64,000 nucleotides of DNA from Anaerolineales bacterium (lineage in GTDB: Bacteria; Chloroflexota; Anaerolineae; Anaerolineales; UBA4823), in assembly GCA_003105035.1 (NCBI GenBank), contig PQAL01000028.1, positions 1 through 64,000 on the forward strand, read 5' to 3'. Shown here piece after piece: positions 504 through 11,096 of this stretch. Every line of letters starts with the position of its first letter. The first letter of the stretch is position 1. The translations under genes were made by a program, and so were the position numbers. Below the pieces are notes generated by a model, which was given only the letters and a program-made list of their open reading frames with translations, ran no database searches and was not told the DNA's origin.

Positions 504-1517
504 TCAACGGCTTACCAGGTCTCTTGCCGATTGGACGATACGCTCCACGTTTGGCAAGGTCTGGTATTCCAGTGTCCTTGAAAACGGGATGGTACTCGTA
601 GTGCAAACCCGCCCATACCGGATGCTCAAACCCGCCTCACCAATAACGGCGGCCAACTCTCCGGATAGCCCAAATTCCTGGTAATCTTCATCGACGACCA
701 GCATCCGGCCGGTTTCTGACACAAAACCAATCACCAATTTTCTATCCAATGGAGAGATCGAGCGCAGGTCTATCACCTGAGCCGAAATTCCTTCTTGGTC
801 AAGCAGCTTAGCTGCTTCGATGGCCCGGTGGACTGACACACCCACAGATACGATGGTGAGATCTTCTCCGGTGCGCCGTAATGTTCCCTGACCGATGGGA
901 ATAGGCTCCCATACTTTTGGTACTGCTCCGCGTACGCCCTCTGATGGGACGTCAAACTTTACATTCTTCCGGCTGCTGCCTCCCATGGAATCCAACCAGG
1001 TTTCCGATAGCAGCTTATGCTCCAGGTAGATTACCGGTCCATCATGTGCTAAAGCAGACGCCATCAATCCGCCTGCATCAAATGGCGTGGAAGGCACCAG
1101 CACCACCAAACCGGGGATGTGTGCCAGCCAACCCCACAGGCTCTGCTCATGCTGGCCTCCGTCCCCATATCCACCTCCGCAGGCGGCGCGGATAACCAAA
1201 GGCACCTTCCACTGGCCATTGGAAAACATCCCTATCTTGGCTGCCTGGTTGAAGATCGCATCCAAGGTCACCCCAATGAAATCAATCAGCATGACTTCCA
1301 CCACCGGACGAAGACCACCCATGGCAGCTGCGACGGCTGCCCCGACGAAGGCTGATTCACTGATGGGTGTGGGCAAAACACGGTCGCGCCCAAAACGCAC
1401 CCGCAGGTTTAATCTCAAGCCTTGTACATCCTCCCCCAGGATGATGATACGATCATCTTGGGCCATCGCCTGCATCAAGGCATCTTCGATTGCATCTTCG
1501 AAGCTCATAGTCCTCAT
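504..1517 (-). CDS. 2-oxoacid dehydrogenase E1 component, beta subunit
   Basis: A 337-residue beta subunit of a thiamine-diphosphate-dependent 2-oxoacid (pyruvate/acetoin/branched-chain type) dehydrogenase. It opens with MSFEDAI and a GED segment near residue 28, and has the TPISESAFVG segment where Glu54 is the expected cofactor-activating residue. A C-terminal transketolase-like domain with VIDLRSISPLD follows. Length matches the family. Its ATG overlaps the stop of the alpha-subunit gene by four bases, which implies translational coupling and an alpha2beta2 enzyme. No E2 or E3 gene is adjacent here; one set lies near 45.8-48.6 kb. The actual oxoacid substrate cannot be told from sequence. 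Confidence 0.93.
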   Translation of the reverse strand: MRTMSFEDAIEDALMQAMAQDDRIIILGEDVQGLRLNLRVRFGRDRVLPTPISESAFVGAAVAAAMGGLRPVVEVMLIDFIGVTLDAIFNQAAKIGMFSNGQWKVPLVIRAACGGGYGDGGQHEQSLWGWLAHIPGLVVLVPSTPFDAGGLMASALAHDGPVIYLEHKLLSETWLDSMGGSSRKNVKFDVPSEGVRGAVPKVWEPIPIGQGTLRRTGEDLTIVSVGVSVHRAIEAAKLLDQEGISAQVIDLRSISPLDRKLVIGFVSETGRMLVVDEDYQEFGLSGELAAVIGEAGLSIRYGRVCTTSTIPFSRTLEYQTLPNVERIVQSARDLVSR

Positions 1518-2581
1518 TGTGCCCAGCCTCCCTTCGGCTCAACCGGGGTGCTTACCGAATCAACAATGGCTTTGATCTCAAAATGTACCTGCTGTTCGAT
1601 CACTTCTACTCTGGCAGCATCGACTTGTACCAGCTTCTTTCTCAAAGGTGGGATCGGATCCCCTGCACCTGATCGAATTTTCCCAGCATTTTCACGGATT
1701 AGGTCGAGCATTTCCCTTAATCCTGCGGTTCGCTCCCGCAGGGGTGCGCCTCGCGATTGGGTATGGGCCTTCACCAACGGCACAGCGATCTTAATTGTCT
1801 CACCGATGGAACGATGGGCATTGCGTATCAATGGATCACCCAGGAAATGTCCCTCCAGGTGGGTGCAATGTGCCAGCAGGAATATCGGCCCACCTCCTTT
1901 CCTCAGCCTGTCGATCTCCTCATAGGCGGTCGTCCATACTTCCTCAACATCACTACCATCCACTTCAACAGCCCTGAGTCCAAAGCCGATGGCACGTTCA
2001 ATCAGGTTTCCACCGGTCTGCTTGGATGTCTCGGTCATGAGCGCCAGTCCATTGTCTTTGCACACAAACAGAACAGGTAGCTTCCAGGCAGATGCCAGGT
2101 TGAACGATTCCAGCATCATTCCCTGGTTGGCTGCCCCTTCACCGAAGAAAGCCACGGAGATCTTCCCTGGTCTCAACCGCTGGTTAGCCAGCGCAAACCC
2201 CACCCCCGCTGGCCCCGATGCGCCGATGATCCCTGAAGAAGCAGCCAGGATTTCAGGGGCGAACAAGTGCATATGCCCACCCATACCACCATTGAGGCCA
2301 TTCGGATTGCCAATAAACTCATTTAGCAATAATCGGGCATCCACGCCTCTTACCAGCAACGGAGCGGTAGCGCGGTGGTCAAGGGCCATGGCATCTCCAT
2401 CCACCAGCTGGTCAACGATGCCAACCGCAATCGCCTCTTCCCCCATGCTCATATGCATCTCGCCGGAGATGATACCCTCATCCCAAACGCGTTTTACTTC
2501 GACTTCAAAGAAGCGGCAGCGTAGCATCTGTGTATAAAGGTGCCAGCTGTCAGGTTCAGGTTGTGTTCGATTCACGTCCAT
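1514..2581 (-). CDS. 2-oxoacid dehydrogenase E1 component, alpha subunit
   Basis: A 355-residue alpha subunit that pairs with the downstream beta subunit in oxidative decarboxylation of a 2-oxoacid. The thiamine-diphosphate/Mg motif is FFGEGAANQG at about residues 145-154, followed by CKDNGLA near 174-180. The first metal ligand is therefore Glu rather than the more usual Asp of GDG, a substitution that should keep the carboxylate. The GGHMHLF segment near residue 101 is also typical of acetoin/pyruvate E1 alpha. It is the first gene of a three-gene minus-strand operon (alpha, beta, thiamine-binding protein). Confidence 0.93.
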   Translation of the reverse strand: MDVNRTQPEPDSWHLYTQMLRCRFFEVEVKRVWDEGIISGEMHMSMGEEAIAVGIVDQLVDGDAMALDHRATAPLLVRGVDARLLLNEFIGNPNGLNGGMGGHMHLFAPEILAASSGIIGASGPAGVGFALANQRLRPGKISVAFFGEGAANQGMMLESFNLASAWKLPVLFVCKDNGLALMTETSKQTGGNLIERAIGFGLRAVEVDGSDVEEVWTTAYEEIDRLRKGGGPIFLLAHCTHLEGHFLGDPLIRNAHRSIGETIKIAVPLVKAHTQSRGAPLRERTAGLREMLDLIRENAGKIRSGAGDPIPPLRKKLVQVDAARVEVIEQQVHFEIKAIVDSVSTPVEPKGGWAQ

Positions 2582-2633
2582 GTCTCGTCTTTCCTCCCCA
2601 ATGAATACATTAATTCTCTTATTTTAATCCCAA

Positions 2634-2672
2634 AAGACACAAATCCTACAATTTGAGAAGGATTTGTGTCTT
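2634..2672 (-). terminator. Intrinsic terminator of the ammonia-lyase gene
   Basis: A perfect 14-bp inverted repeat (arms 2634-2647 and 2659-2672, 11-base loop) lies 26 bases past the stop of the minus-strand lyase. Read on the minus strand the stem ends in a short T run. It separates the lyase from the downstream E1 alpha gene on the same strand. Confidence 0.8.
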
Positions 2673-2697
2673 CAGCTTTGAGATTTACTGAGTAATT

Positions 2698-4221
2698 CTA
2701 CTCCAGGCTCCCGATAATTTTTTCTACTTCGTCGAGGATTTCACCTGACTTGACCAGCTCCTTCATCTTGTTATGGTCTGCATGTAACGGACGGTCTTCA
2801 TCCAGGTGGGATACGTGCCTCCTGATCACATCCCGGGCAGTCTGCACACCTTTTCCTGGGGAGAACTCCCTGAAGTCCAGCGCCTGGGCTGCCGCCATGA
2901 ATTCGATGCCCAATACACCGTAGGCATTATCCAGGATCTGCCCGTTTTTAATGGCTGTGTTCATACCCATCGAGACGAAATCTTCCTGGTCAGCTGCGGC
3001 TGGGATGGACTGGATGCTGGCTGGCATGGAGAGGATGCGCTGTTCCACGATCATGGTATCGGCCGTATATTGGCTAAGCATCATGCCCGAAAACATCCCT
3101 GCACCTTTGGTGAGGAATTCCGGCAACCCTACACTGAGCGCCGGGTTGGTCAAACGATTCAACCTTCGCTCAGATAAAACGCATATCATGGTGATGGCCG
3201 CTCCCACCATATCCATCGGCAGGCTGACTGGTGAGCCCTGGAAATTCGCTCCCGTCAGGGTCAGCCGGTATTCCGGGAGGAAAATTGGGTTATCTCCTAC
3301 GCCATTCAGCTCGATCTCCACCTGGCTCTGGGCATAATCCAGTGCGTCGTGTGCAGCACCAATCACCTGCGGTGATGAGCGCATGGAGTAAGCATCCTGG
3401 ACCTTGGTTTTCATCTTGCCAGTGGTCAGATCGCTACCCTCAATGCATTTCATGATGACCCTGGCTGTCCGGACCGCACCTTTGAAGCCACGTGCCTGGT
3501 GCAAGCGTATATCATACGGTTTGAGGTTCGCCAGCAAGGCTTCCAGGCTCATGGCACATGCAATCTCCGCCTGTTTTAGCCAGCGATTCATGTCATACAG
3601 ATGCAAGGCACTCATGGCGGTTAGCATGTTCGAGCCATTGATCGCCGCCAGGCCATCGCGTGCCTGCAGCCCAGGGATGGCAATCCCAGCCCTTTCCATG
3701 GCGATCCGCCCAGGCAGTCGCTCACCCTGGTAGAATGCTTCACCTTCACCCATGAGCAGCAAGGCGATCTGCGACATGGGTGCCAGGTCACCGCAGGCAC
3801 CCACTGAGCCTTTCTGGCAAACCACCGGCGTCACACCTTTATTCAGCATTTCCACCAGGGTCTGGGTGATCTCCAGCCGACAGCCCGAGTTACCGTGGGC
3901 ATGTACGTTGATTCTCCCGGCCATAGCCCCACGGATATTCTCCACCGGGCTAGGTTCCCCGATCCCTGCCGCGTGGTTGTAGATCAGGTAGCGCTGGAAT
4001 TGCTGAACCTGGTCATCGTCCAATACTCTCTCAGAGAATTCTCCAATGCCGGTGTTCACCCCATACATGATCTCATGTTTCTTGATCTTTTCTTCAACCA
4101 TCGCCCGGCAAGCTTTTATACGCTCCAGCGCTTGCGGGTGTAGCTCGACTTTTTCCCCCTCCCGCGCAATCTTCATCAGCTTCTCAAGAGTTAATCCTGT
4201 ACCATCCAGGGTGATTGTCAT
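2698..4221 (-). CDS. hutH: Histidine ammonia-lyase-like enzyme with Ala-Cys-Gly MIO triad
   Basis: A 507-residue aromatic amino acid lyase that would deaminate L-histidine to urocanate. The open frame extends upstream, but the start chosen at 4221 has AAAGGAG just upstream and gives the family N-terminus. Family landmarks fall at the Pseudomonas putida HutH numbers: Tyr53 in YGVNTG, His83 in NHAAG (a histidine-lyase rather than Phe/Tyr-lyase signature), and the cofactor triad at 142-144. The triad reads Ala-Cys-Gly in GSVGACGDLAPM, whereas MIO normally forms from Ala-Ser-Gly. GANFQGSP replaces the usual GNFHGEP. There are no hutU, hutI or hutG neighbours. Histidine as substrate is likely but not certain. 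Confidence 0.88.
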   Translation of the reverse strand: MTITLDGTGLTLEKLMKIAREGEKVELHPQALERIKACRAMVEEKIKKHEIMYGVNTGIGEFSERVLDDDQVQQFQRYLIYNHAAGIGEPSPVENIRGAMAGRINVHAHGNSGCRLEITQTLVEMLNKGVTPVVCQKGSVGACGDLAPMSQIALLLMGEGEAFYQGERLPGRIAMERAGIAIPGLQARDGLAAINGSNMLTAMSALHLYDMNRWLKQAEIACAMSLEALLANLKPYDIRLHQARGFKGAVRTARVIMKCIEGSDLTTGKMKTKVQDAYSMRSSPQVIGAAHDALDYAQSQVEIELNGVGDNPIFLPEYRLTLTGANFQGSPVSLPMDMVGAAITMICVLSERRLNRLTNPALSVGLPEFLTKGAGMFSGMMLSQYTADTMIVEQRILSMPASIQSIPAAADQEDFVSMGMNTAIKNGQILDNAYGVLGIEFMAAAQALDFREFSPGKGVQTARDVIRRHVSHLDEDRPLHADHNKMKELVKSGEILDEVEKIIGSLE

Positions 4222-4406
4222 AAATAACTCCTTTACTGAATATCCTGTATCCTCCCTGTTATACCGGAGAGTCGGATTATGGGCAAGTGATATTTGTCCG
4301 CAGTTGCCAGAGAGATTTCGTATTCTCATCAACCGGGTTAAGTTTTTACTTAAGATAACTTTCCTGGTACACATAGGATATCTGTCTCTACCCGGAATCT
4401 ATAACT

Positions 4407-4506: not shown

Positions 4507-4896
4507 ATGCGGCTATATGCCGATAGTGCTAAGTGCTCGGGGTGTCGAGCCTGTATGGTGGCTTGTTCACTCAATCTCTTTCAAGAAAGTAATCCAAAAA
4601 AAGCTTCGTTGAATCTGATCCCCCATTTCCCCGCCCCAGGTGTGTATGAGATGAAAGTATGCACCCAGTGTGGCGATTGCGCCGCGGTCTGTCCAACCGA
4701 AGCCATAAAGCTGAACGAACGTGGCGCTTATTATGTGGATTTTGCCGAGTGCAATCTCTGCGAAGCTTGCGTACCCGAATGCCCTGAGGACGTCATGTTC
4801 GTTCGTGCTGAGCTGGCTAATGCCGCCTGGAAGTGTGATCTGTGCGGTGATTGCGTCAGTGTGTGCGGCACCAGCGCATTATGGATCGACAACTAG
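4507..4896 (+). CDS. Four-cluster [4Fe-4S] ferredoxin-like protein of the aldehyde oxidoreductase operon
   Basis: A 129-residue protein with sixteen cysteines in four CxxCxxCxxxC sets: Cys10/13/16/20, 52/55/58/62, 82/85/88/92 and 110/113/116/120. It should therefore hold four [4Fe-4S] clusters and act as the electron-accepting polyferredoxin of the aldehyde oxidoreductase encoded 9 bases downstream. Similar polyferredoxin subunits accompany AOR-family enzymes such as Aor and Bam complexes. A strong GAAAGGAGG ribosome-binding site precedes the ATG. There is no signal peptide, so it is cytoplasmic. The two following genes (aor1, moaD-like) complete the operon. Confidence 0.9.
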   Translation: MRLYADSAKCSGCRACMVACSLNLFQESNPKKASLNLIPHFPAPGVYEMKVCTQCGDCAAVCPTEAIKLNERGAYYVDFAECNLCEACVPECPEDVMFVRAELANAAWKCDLCGDCVSVCGTSALWIDN

Positions 4897-4905
4897 GAGG
4901 CAGAT

Positions 4906-6732
4906 ATGAATGGCTATGGCGGAACAATCCTACGTGTAAATCTTACCGATGGAAAAATCACCAAAGAGCCCACACCTGCCCAATTGGCACGCGATTTTAT
5001 CGGTGGGCGTGGTTTCGGTATATATTTCTTATTTAAAGAAGTCCCCAAACACGTTGACGCGCTTGGTCCTGAGAACAAGCTCATCATCTCCACTGGTCCT
5101 CTTTCCGGTATGCTTGCCCCTGGTGGCGGAAAATGCGATTGGACAACCAAGAGCCCCCTTACCGGAGGCTATGCCGACGCTTCCATGGGGGGTCATTTCA
5201 CTGCCGAGATGAAATATGCTGGTCTGGATACAATCATCCTGGAAGGCATCAGCCCCAAGCCAGTCTACCTGTTCATCGATAACGACAAAATCCAGCTGCT
5301 CGATGCTGCAGCCTTTTGGGGCAAGGGTGCCATTGATGTAGAGGTGGAGCTCAAGCACAAATACGGAGAGGAATATCAGGTGGCTGCCATCGGACCGGGT
5401 GGTGAAAACCAGGTCCTGTACGCTTGCATTAACCATGATTATGGTCGTCAGGCCGGGCGCGGTGGTGTGGGAGCCGTCATGGGCAGCAAGAAAGTAAAAG
5501 CCATCGTCCTGCATGGCACCAAATCAGTGGTCGTCGCAGACCCCGAGAATTACCACAAGGCTGGCCTGGCGCTCTACAAAGCCTGCAAGGATGCTGAAGG
5601 CCTGGCGGAGTGGTCACGTTATGGCACCACGGTGGTGACGAGCTGGTGCAACGAGGTGGGTGCCCTGCCAACCCGCAATTTCAGTGCTGGCTCGTTTGAG
5701 GGTATTGACCAGATCAACGGGCAGGCTATGCGCAAGGAAATCGTCATCACCGACAAGGGCTGCTTCGGATGCCCCTCCCCGTGCGGTAAGTACTCCAATA
5801 TGAAACGCTACAACACCCAGGTGGAAGGCCCCGAGTATGAGACGATTGGCTTGATGGGATCCAACCTGGGGATCGCCGATATCCAGGTCGTGGGCGAGGC
5901 GAATCGCCTGGCAGACGATATGGGGATTGATTCGATCAGTGCCGGTAGCTGTATCGCCTGGGCAATGGAATGCTACGAAAAAGGTATCCTGACCAAGGCA
6001 GATACGGATGGCCTCGAGCTTAAATTCGGGAATGCGGATGCTGTCTTTACGCTGATCAAGAAGATCGGCCATCGTGAAGGAAAGCTCGGCGAGCTGCTCG
6101 CTCTGGGAGTCAATCGTGCCTCTCAGCAGGTTGGCCAAGGCAGCGAGAAATTCGCCATCCATGTTAAAGGCATGGAACAGTCAGCCTATGCCACCCACAA
6201 CGCCACCGCCATGTTGCTGGCATATATGACCTGTGATGTAGGCGCTCACCATAACCGCTCCTGGGCCATTACCTACGACCTGCAGGTGGGGCGTGAGAAG
6301 GTGGTACCCGAGAAAGTCGCCCGCATCATCTGGTTGCAGAATTTCCGACCGATGTTTGACGTTATGGGTTCCTGCCGATTGCAATGGGTGGAGCTTGGCA
6401 TTGACCGCGACCTTTACGTCCCGCTCCTGGAAGCCATCACCGGCGTAAAGCGAACCTGGCAAGACCTGGAAGCCGTTGGGAATCGCATCTGGACCCTAAC
6501 CCGCATGTATTGGCTGCGGGAGAACGATGGCTTTGATCGTCAATGGGACCTGCCATCCCCACGCTTTTATACCGAGCCTCCCAAGACCGGTGCAACAGCT
6601 GGGCAGATCACCAAATTTGAGGATGTCCAGCGCTTACTCGATATGTATTATGAACAACGCGGCTGGGATAGCCATGGTTTGCCCACCCCAGCCACACTAG
6701 ACACACTCAACCTGACTGCCCTGGTGGCATAG
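4906..6732 (+). CDS. aor: Aldehyde:ferredoxin oxidoreductase 1 (W/Mo-pterin enzyme)
   Basis: A 608-residue tungsten- or molybdenum-bispterin oxidoreductase of the AOR family that oxidises aldehydes to acids with ferredoxin, or runs in reverse. The N-terminal AOR domain contains STGPLSG and SPLTGG near residues 62-88, and a glycine-rich pterin segment, GRGGVGAVMGSKKVK, near 184-198. The [4Fe-4S] ligands are Cys286, Cys289, Cys293 (CxxCxxxC) and Cys490, close to the Pyrococcus furiosus numbers 288/291/295/494. GGAGG in the ATGAATGG context 9 bases after the ferredoxin stop gives the start. The aldehyde substrate and the metal are not predictable from sequence. Confidence 0.93.
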   Translation: MNGYGGTILRVNLTDGKITKEPTPAQLARDFIGGRGFGIYFLFKEVPKHVDALGPENKLIISTGPLSGMLAPGGGKCDWTTKSPLTGGYADASMGGHFTAEMKYAGLDTIILEGISPKPVYLFIDNDKIQLLDAAAFWGKGAIDVEVELKHKYGEEYQVAAIGPGGENQVLYACINHDYGRQAGRGGVGAVMGSKKVKAIVLHGTKSVVVADPENYHKAGLALYKACKDAEGLAEWSRYGTTVVTSWCNEVGALPTRNFSAGSFEGIDQINGQAMRKEIVITDKGCFGCPSPCGKYSNMKRYNTQVEGPEYETIGLMGSNLGIADIQVVGEANRLADDMGIDSISAGSCIAWAMECYEKGILTKADTDGLELKFGNADAVFTLIKKIGHREGKLGELLALGVNRASQQVGQGSEKFAIHVKGMEQSAYATHNATAMLLAYMTCDVGAHHNRSWAITYDLQVGREKVVPEKVARIIWLQNFRPMFDVMGSCRLQWVELGIDRDLYVPLLEAITGVKRTWQDLEAVGNRIWTLTRMYWLRENDGFDRQWDLPSPRFYTEPPKTGATAGQITKFEDVQRLLDMYYEQRGWDSHGLPTPATLDTLNLTALVA

Positions 6733-9337: not shown

Positions 9338-9374
9338 GGCTAAATTATCTCATGAAGCTGGTGATCTATCTGTG

Positions 9375-11096
9375 TTATCCTCGGTTTTTCAGCCAATCGA
9401 TTAAACGGGTCGGACTCCAGGTATTAATTACGTCCTCAGCAGTGACCCAGCCCCGCCGTGCCGTGGCGACTCCGAAGTGCATCATCTCCATGTCCGCTTC
9501 GCTGTGGGCATCCGTGTTAATGGTCAGCTTAATCCCCATCTCGATCGCCCGCCTGGCATGCACATCGTCCAGGTCCAAACGGGAGGGATGGGCATTGATC
9601 TCCAATGCAATGCTCGCCTCCTTGGCTGCTCCCAGCACGGCCTCCATATCCAGGTCGGCCCCCTCCCGATCGGGCAGTAGCCTGCCTGTTGGATGGGGGA
9701 TGATATCGACATTTGGATTTTGGATGGCTTTGACCATCCTTTCAGTCACCTTTTGACGTGGCTGGCGTAAGCTGGTGTGCAGTGCTGCAAATACGATATC
9801 CAGCTCAGCCAGTACTTCATCGGGATAATCCAGGCTGCCATCTGCCTTTATCTCCACTTCAGCACCACGCAGGATATGGATTTTGCCATCCAGCTCTTTT
9901 ACTGCCTCATTGATCTCCAGGCGTTGCTTCCTGACATCCTCAGCTGTCATCCCTTGCACGATACCCAGGCTGGAGGTATGGTCAGTGATGGCCAGCAGCT
10001 TGTAACCCCTTTTGATGGCAGCCTCGGCCATCTGCTTGATGGTCAGCTTTCCATCACTCCAGGTTGTGTGAATCTGGAGATCAGCTTTTATGTCATCCAG
10101 CTCGATTAACTTAGGTAGTGTACCTTTGATAGCGGCCTGTACCTCACCTCGGTCTTCACGTATCTCAGGGGGAATAAAGGGCAAACCGAGGGTCTCGTAT
10201 ACCTGCGCTTCGCGTTCACAGGTGACCTCGCTGCCGTCTTTGCGCTGCAGGGAATGTTCTGACAATGAAAAACCTTTCTTTAAGGCGTATTCGCGCAGGC
10301 GCACATTGTGATCTTTCGAGCCAGTAGCATACACCAACGCCGTACCCCAATGCTCTGGCGGATGCACCCATAGCTGGGCTTGTAAGCCGTGGGTAAACTC
10401 AACACTGGATTTCGTCTCGCCTTTGCCTAATATCCGCGCTACATCTTTTCGGCTGGTAAAGGCATCCATGATTGCCCGTGAATCATTGGCTGCAGCCAGG
10501 ATATCAATATCACCAACGGTTGCCCGCATCCTGCGCAGGCTTCCACCCAGCTCCACGGCTTTCACACCTGGGGCTTTGCGCAGGTAATCCATTAATTCCA
10601 TGGCAAACGGCCAGGCTTTGCCGATCGGGATACGGTTCGAGCGCCTCCCCAGCGCTTCAATCCCTGCCAGCACCTTGGCTTCCGATTTTTCCCCCATCCC
10701 TGGCAGGGAACGCAACTTTCCAGCACGAGCTGCCTCTTCGAGCTGGCTTAAATTGGTGATGCCCAGCTCTTTCCAAAACATGGCTACCTTTTTCGGACCC
10801 AGGTCAGGCACTTGTAGTTCCTCTGCCAGGCTGGGTGGTACTTCCACTTCCAGTTTCTCCAAAAACCCAAGATGGCCGGTAGTGAGCAGCTCATCGATTT
10901 TCTCAGCGATAGCTTTACCCACACCATCCACCTCGGTGAGTTTCCCTTGTTTCCATACTTCATTAATATCCTGTCCCAGGTTACCCAGGCTGTCTGCTGC
11001 CTTACGGTATGCCAGGATCTTATAGATATTTTCACCCTTGATTTCCAACAGGTCAGCGATTGTTCGAAATGTATTGGCGAGTTCTTGATTGGTCAT
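9375..11096 (-). CDS. polX: DNA polymerase/3'-5' exonuclease PolX
   Basis: A family X DNA polymerase of about 573 residues with a C-terminal PHP exonuclease domain, used in gap-filling base excision repair. The N-terminal helix-hairpin-helix region includes VDGVGKAIAEKI and LPGMGEKSEAKV. The polymerase metal-binding pair is in VGDIDILAA. The PHP domain shows HTTWSDG, ITDHTSS, HPTGRLL, NAHPSRLD and NTDAHSEADM, the expected metal-binding His/Asp set, so it looks active. A Met three codons upstream (11105) is an alternative start; MTNQELAN at 11096 fits the family better. Confidence 0.95.
   Translation of the reverse strand: MTNQELANTFRTIADLLEIKGENIYKILAYRKAADSLGNLGQDINEVWKQGKLTEVDGVGKAIAEKIDELLTTGHLGFLEKLEVEVPPSLAEELQVPDLGPKKVAMFWKELGITNLSQLEEAARAGKLRSLPGMGEKSEAKVLAGIEALGRRSNRIPIGKAWPFAMELMDYLRKAPGVKAVELGGSLRRMRATVGDIDILAAANDSRAIMDAFTSRKDVARILGKGETKSSVEFTHGLQAQLWVHPPEHWGTALVYATGSKDHNVRLREYALKKGFSLSEHSLQRKDGSEVTCEREAQVYETLGLPFIPPEIREDRGEVQAAIKGTLPKLIELDDIKADLQIHTTWSDGKLTIKQMAEAAIKRGYKLLAITDHTSSLGIVQGMTAEDVRKQRLEINEAVKELDGKIHILRGAEVEIKADGSLDYPDEVLAELDIVFAALHTSLRQPRQKVTERMVKAIQNPNVDIIPHPTGRLLPDREGADLDMEAVLGAAKEASIALEINAHPSRLDLDDVHARRAIEMGIKLTINTDAHSEADMEMMHFGVATARRGWVTAEDVINTWSPTRLIDWLKNRG

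Follow-up and report, generated by a model that had tools for sequence, protein, structure and literature searches.

Can an ammonia-lyase build the prosthetic group MIO when the triad that should supply it reads Ala-Cys-Gly instead of Ala-Ser-Gly? This question is raised by a gene resembling those for histidine ammonia-lyase (HutH, or HAL) in the window, i.e. the whole stretch of 64 000 nucleotides analysed here. Cys and Ser are the two residues that readily eliminate to dehydroalanine, and the S143C mutant of Pseudomonas putida HAL was reportedly converted to active enzyme (Langer, Lieber and Retey, 1994). In passages of two papers, MIO is described as arising from Ala-Ser-Gly or X-Ser-Gly, the first residue alone varying (PMC11432326, PMC12737037), and a passage of the second states that S202A in parsley PAL abolishes cofactor formation (PMC12737037). 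The answer that we develop below, and that we hold to be highly probable, is that the window gene encodes a functional histidase which forms MIO from Ala-Cys-Gly and makes urocanate for the organism's own hut pathway.

The triad itself is real, as the initial annotation had held. The minus-strand frame is open from the ATG at 4221 to the stop at 2698, the plus strand over 2698-4221 holds many stops, and the Cys143 codon TGC (plus-strand 3793-3795) falls within the motif GSVGACGDLAPM (table 1). The start at 4221 is favoured over the upstream ATG of a 558-aa ORF because of the AAAGGAG that precedes it. On the other side of the gene, the hairpin (-27.9 kcal/mol for the whole fold, z -4.1), which is absent from the list of a consensus terminator scan, is perhaps a terminator between the lyase gene and the E1 genes; accordingly, the lyase gene is perhaps not co-transcribed with these downstream genes. 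No hut gene adjoins the lyase gene in the window. Its surroundings consist of the two E1 genes with a gene for a thiamine-binding protein (PF01910) after them (174-2581 as a whole), plausibly a thiamine-linked operon, and of a gene for a ferredoxin-like 4Fe-4S protein adjoining one for an aldehyde ferredoxin oxidoreductase (AFOR) at 4507-6732.

Table 1. Features at and around the lyase gene, in window coordinates.
Feature	Position	Strand	Basis
HutH-type ammonia-lyase gene, 507 aa, PF00221, natural ACG triad	2698..4221	-	ORF and profile matches
Putative MIO-forming triad codons Ala142-Cys143-Gly144 (GCC TGC GGT)	3790..3798	-	
AAAGGAG, Shine-Dalgarno-like, ahead of ATG 4221	4228..4234	-	direct reading
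Strong hairpin directly 3' of the lyase gene	2633..2673	-	fold of 101 nt
Dehydrogenase E1 component, alpha-type (PF00676), next gene downstream of the lyase	1514..2581	-	
E1 beta-type subunit (PF02779/PF02780)	504..1517	-	

By profile matching, the protein belongs to the aromatic amino acid lyase / MIO superfamily (PF00221, 535.1 bits for a cut-off of 27.3) and exceeds the cut-off of the NCBIfam histidine ammonia-lyase model (PRK09367, 538.2 versus 524 bits), and it scores under that of the hutH equivalog (TIGR01225, 503 versus 539.15 bits). Within the clade of relatives defined below, one member (L064) obtains 521.3 bits on PRK09367, just under the cut-off, and a deeper one (L210) obtains 550 bits on TIGR01225, over the cut-off. 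The full HutH catalytic set (Tyr, His, Asn, Gln, Tyr, Arg, Phe, Glu) is found in the window protein. In the phmmer alignment, Tyr53, His83, residue 143 and Asn195 carry the same numbers as in P. putida HAL (1gkm), which bears out the shared numbering proposed initially, and Gln277, Tyr280, Arg283, Phe329 and Glu414 of the Pseudomonas enzyme, which we take to be catalytic, correspond to Gln275, Tyr278, Arg281, Phe327 and Glu413. All of these are conserved throughout the clade: Tyr53, His83, Asn195, Gln275, Tyr278, Arg281 and Phe327 are invariant in 191/191 rows, and Glu413 is found in the 190/190 rows with a residue at that column. According to a passage on HAL of G. kaustophilus, mutants Y52F, H82L, N194D and E411D of that enzyme had no activity (PMC11432326); these four positions align with Tyr53, His83, Asn195 and Glu413.

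The AlphaFold monomer model (pLDDT 80.6) has P. putida HAL as its closest match (TM 0.84; 34-35% identity in the structural alignment), and reaches 0.81 with Thermoplasma HAL. As the model is poor at 139-145, 325-327 and 364-410, no claim is made on active-site geometry. Two sequence marks of HutH are changed: the Ala-Ser-Gly of HutH and MIO enzymes is Ala-Cys-Gly, and the Ser/His couple, presented as the HAL switch pair in a passage of PMC11432326, is Asn82-His83. Because the protein has neither this Ser/His pair nor a score above the TIGR01225 cut-off, we refrain from classing it among the standard HutH enzymes; in our reading, the clade protein works like HutH.

Relatives were then aligned, as initially advised, to gauge how widespread Ala-Cys-Gly is. 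The alignment comprises 298 distinct homologues from seven protein-query genome draws, their loci and 140 extracted regions, identical proteins being collapsed and three short fragments (one of L027 and two of L176) left out before counting. Residue 143 is Cys in 137 of them and Ser in 161, with no third residue. A clade of 191 proteins with at least 53% identity to the window protein, from many phyla and mostly from MAGs, displays 136 ACG and 55 ASG triads, counts that are not frequencies in nature since the window protein was the query throughout and sampling was not random. Outside this clade (<53% identity, n=107), the triads are 88 ASG, 12 SSG, 5 TSG, 1 CSG and 1 ACG. Among the best 80 of 571 relatives from a contig scan, all at least 79% identical to the window protein, ACG and ASG are intermixed, and the phyla are Chloroflexota, Ignavibacteriota, Aminicenantes, Zixibacteria, Calditrichota, Acidobacteriota and others. 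Within an ACG/ASG pair, identity reaches 96.8% (L064/L072). Cys143 is encoded by TGC in 87 rows and TGT in 37, and Ser143 by AGY in 34 and TCN in 21, each of the two being one base from TGY.

The supposition that a natural Cys triad is unusual thus does not hold among relatives, where ACG is not rare. It is indeed common in the clade, but in searches of an open-access library we recognised no paper on a natural Ala-Cys-Gly ammonia-lyase. A sequencing or assembly error at the Cys143 codon, a suspicion that sources made up mostly of MAGs could feed, can be regarded as excluded, because separate assemblies of many genomes yield the same triad, in 136 distinct clade proteins and with both TGC and TGT in use.

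The clade also carries residues of its own around the active site. Position 82 is Asn in 176/191 clade proteins and Ser in 15/191, versus Ser in 106/107 outside; Arg188 and Gln328 stand against Lys188 and His328 (107/107 outside rows for each), Ser282 (187/191) against Cys282 (106/107), and Phe415 against His415 (91/107). These clade-specific residues (Asn82, Arg188, Ser282, Gln328 and Phe415), together with the score of the window protein under the TIGR01225 cut-off, speak for an MIO lyase acting on a substrate other than histidine, e.g. a modified histidine or another amino acid. We regard this alternative as unlikely in the light of the gene neighbourhoods and genome contents presented below.

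A second alternative concerns the thiol itself. Cys is chemically distinct from Ser, MIO in ACG proteins is predicted, and a further cysteine, Cys135, characterises the clade (184/191 rows versus 0/107 outside, where Pro135 occupies 100/107); Cys143 might then stay unconverted, the ACG proteins being inactive or their thiol serving as a redox or metal-binding switch. However, a pairing of Cys135 with Cys143 is ruled out, as Cys135 is also present in 53/53 ASG rows of the first set and is hence uncoupled from Cys143. Moreover, were MIO dispensable, one might expect Ala, Thr or Gly at position 143, and none occurs there in 298 rows. The catalytic residues are invariant, and ACG is found inside hut clusters (L007 and L320, below). 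We thus consider an unconverted Cys143 very unlikely, and conversion of this residue to MIO in a histidase stays our preferred reading.

How the two residues are distributed along the phylogeny was examined on a quick maximum-likelihood tree from which columns 142-144 and 330 were excluded. The 191 clade proteins are monophyletic (support 100), and their sister is a small TSG group (L214-L218, 42-48% identity) with Ser82, Lys188, Cys282, His328 and His415 in 5/5, one of which (L214) obtains 603 bits on TIGR01225. By parsimony, position 143 requires at least 29 changes within the clade, a number that gene-segment transfer could inflate, and residues 138-142, 144-146 and 148 require none. For the 189 rows with a codon, a Cys root costs 29 changes and a Ser root 30; with Cys at the root, 20-27 of the 29 changes run from Cys to Ser. 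On an earlier tree (201 rows, 178 clade members), position 143 took 27 changes, or 16 once branches under 95 were collapsed, and three other two-state columns toggled about equally often (26 changes for R/K77, 20 for G/A98 and 28 for I/V466), so that the C/S swap resembles a conservative replacement. Shuffled Cys/Ser labels need 39-52 changes, which indicates that the state at 143 is inherited between switches. Hence, from these sequences, the relatives appear to have swapped Cys and Ser at 143 many times, the order of the switches being a parsimony estimate on a quick tree. A coupling of residue 330 (Ser/Thr) to 143 was tried and rejected: the plain Fisher test gave p 6e-7 on 95 sequences, and the signal faded on the tree (8.3 versus 1.6 pairs, median p 0.065), also with more rows (7.3 versus 3.3 pairs, median p 0.344).

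It could be argued that repeated Cys/Ser switching in a large histidase clade, whose Cys form would expel H2S, is adaptive, for example as a thiol-based control. Indeed, an unprocessed thiol might permit redox- or sulfide-dependent control of MIO maturation, and the Cys form would then be a condition-gated enzyme. We find such an adaptive role improbable; Cys and Ser at 143 would, we infer, both yield the same cofactor.

The gene neighbourhoods of relatives bear directly on the substrate. The lyase gene of L007 (ACG, 86% identical to the window protein, genome G010) sits between a HutC-like GntR gene (179 bits for a cut-off of 220; 4-bp overlap with the lyase gene) and hutU (917 bits, 50 bp away), the lyase being upstream of hutU. 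Beside these hut genes, at 9368-10798 of the same locus, lies an ORF like trimethylamine-corrinoid methyltransferase (383 bits, under the cut-off of 525). Altogether, hutU adjoins the clade gene in seven genomes (L007, L015, L053, L065, L069, L128 and L134), in a divergent arrangement for L065 and L134, and is one gene away in an eighth (L014), where an ordinary HutH is also present; hutU was confirmed by a model in L007, L014 and L128, and by 60-66% tblastn identity in the rest. Both triads occur at these loci, ACG in L007, L014, L015 and L069, ASG in L053, L065, L128 and L134. The order at L128 is hutU-hutH(ASG)-orf-ftcD-hutI, with hutI recognised by tblastn only. A urocanase-like neighbour at L041, only 35% like hutU, was excluded from the count. 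Finally, five loci (L014, L026, L061, L068 and L139) combine the clade lyase with a non-clade HutH-like gene at a distance of a few kb at most.

The hutU genes at or near eight clade loci, the HutC-like gene at L007, and ftcD and hutI at L128 all argue against a non-histidine substrate. The idea, also raised initially, that the variant has another function or is inactive is disfavoured by these same genes near relatives, as well as by the invariant catalytic residues and the strict Cys/Ser alternation at 143. A wider neighbourhood comparison covered 104 loci, 96 of which were kept; the eight without a called main gene (L007, L032, L064, L065, L072, L127, L128 and L134) stood outside it, and hutU was found beside the gene in four of them by tblastn over all fetched loci. 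Among the 96, no general conserved neighbour emerged: the widest common cluster, hflX, covers 13 loci, and hflX and serC flank lineage-specific copies of the clade gene. At most clade loci with flanks, no hut neighbour was found. The sole ACG protein outside the clade (1/107; L222/L320, G1076:C75) is, judged by its sequence, another ACG histidase, distinct from the clade and of the ordinary HutH type, with 682 bits on TIGR01225 (cut-off 539); its gene (5980-7533 of L320) heads a hutH-hutI-ftcD-hutU cluster, and its nearest tree neighbours (L226 and L228) are ASG.

The genome from which the window comes (4.45 Mb, 43 contigs, 97% complete, 4% contamination) contains a single PF00221 match, the window gene. 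Proteins of members of its family are identical to ones from named Anaerolineales MAGs, which probably places it in Chloroflexota. It also holds one urocanase match (contig C13) and one hutI over the cut-off (contig C25), i.e. both of the pathway partners that were sought, the three genes being on separate contigs; this company likewise counts against a non-histidine substrate. Among 26 genomes of the relatives set with the clade lyase only, this one included, 24 have urocanase, 23 hutI and 22 both. Urocanase presence alone is nevertheless weak evidence, because it is also frequent in genomes that gave no lyase match (7/11 in draw 1; 11/17 in draw 5, versus 56/66 clade genomes of that draw, p 0.08).

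The clade lyase also tends to replace the ordinary one, though incompletely. The frequency of a second, non-clade lyase in clade genomes was compared with that of any lyase in other genomes: 5/31 versus 19/30 in draw 1, 0/22 versus 146/279 in draw 2, 4-5/16 versus 125/182 in draw 3, 16-20/45 versus 115/154 in draw 4 (one phylum), 0/66 versus 27/52 in draw 5, 0-5/13 versus 163/182 in draw 6 and 1/2 versus 120/294 in draw 7, where clade genomes are too few; the lower figure of a range is that among the matches listed. In draws 1-6 of the seven, the second lyase is rarer in clade genomes (Fisher p <=0.005 each, in statistics that ignore kinship and with genomes shared by draws 1 and 2), a tendency that again argues against a non-histidine substrate. 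Some genomes point the other way: a second lyase of <50% identity accompanies the clade gene in at least 16/45 clade genomes of draw 4 and at least 4/16 of draw 3, an ordinary HutH (690 bits on PRK09367) is encoded in genome G010 as well, and no urocanase match was obtained in 10/66 clade genomes of draw 5. One of these ten is G839, whose clade gene lies on a 3.4-Mb contig.

Taken together, the ACG protein is a known enzyme in a genuine variant form, which is common and apparently old; very likely, its chemistry relies on the conventional MIO, and only the residue that supplies it is unconventional. A Cys-derived MIO, first mentioned as a mere possibility, has thereby become the best reading, drawn from sequence and context; from these we infer MIO formation, histidine as the substrate and H2S as the leaving group. 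In the proposed maturation, the Gly144 nitrogen would attack the Ala142 carbonyl and water would leave; Cys143 would then lose H2S where Ser would lose H2O, yielding the same MIO electrophile. Urocanate made from histidine would feed the hut pathway encoded on separate contigs. As for its history, an old HutH-like clade would most simply have gained Cys on its stem, and many Cys/Ser switches, at position 143 alone, would have followed.

The relatives offer a series of enzymes, among them the nearly identical pair L064/L072, in which the cofactor-forming residue varies naturally; with these, MIO formation from Cys, the departure of H2S and the reason for Cys/Ser switching become testable. In practice, ACG proteins would be overlooked or misjudged wherever annotation or mining insists on ASG.

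Compared with known systems, the window protein is closest to HutH (P. putida, 1b8f/1gkm; Thermoplasma acidophilum, 7tqr; TIGR01225/PRK09367), with which it shares predicted fold, length and catalytic set, as well as hut-pathway partners in the genome, some clade relatives also adjoining hutU. It departs from HutH, which has Ser as MIO precursor and a Ser-His pair, by Cys143 and Asn82-His83, and further by Arg188, Ser282, Gln328, Phe415 and Cys135. The TSG sister group L214-L218, unlike the clade, keeps Ser at 143 and the ordinary HutH residues. The S143C mutant of P. putida HAL also has Cys in the precursor position, but as an engineered single residue, whereas the Cys described here is natural and apparently old, and prevails among the sampled clade members. 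Finally, the known natural variation of the MIO triad affects its first residue, whereas here it affects the middle one, the residue that would undergo elimination.
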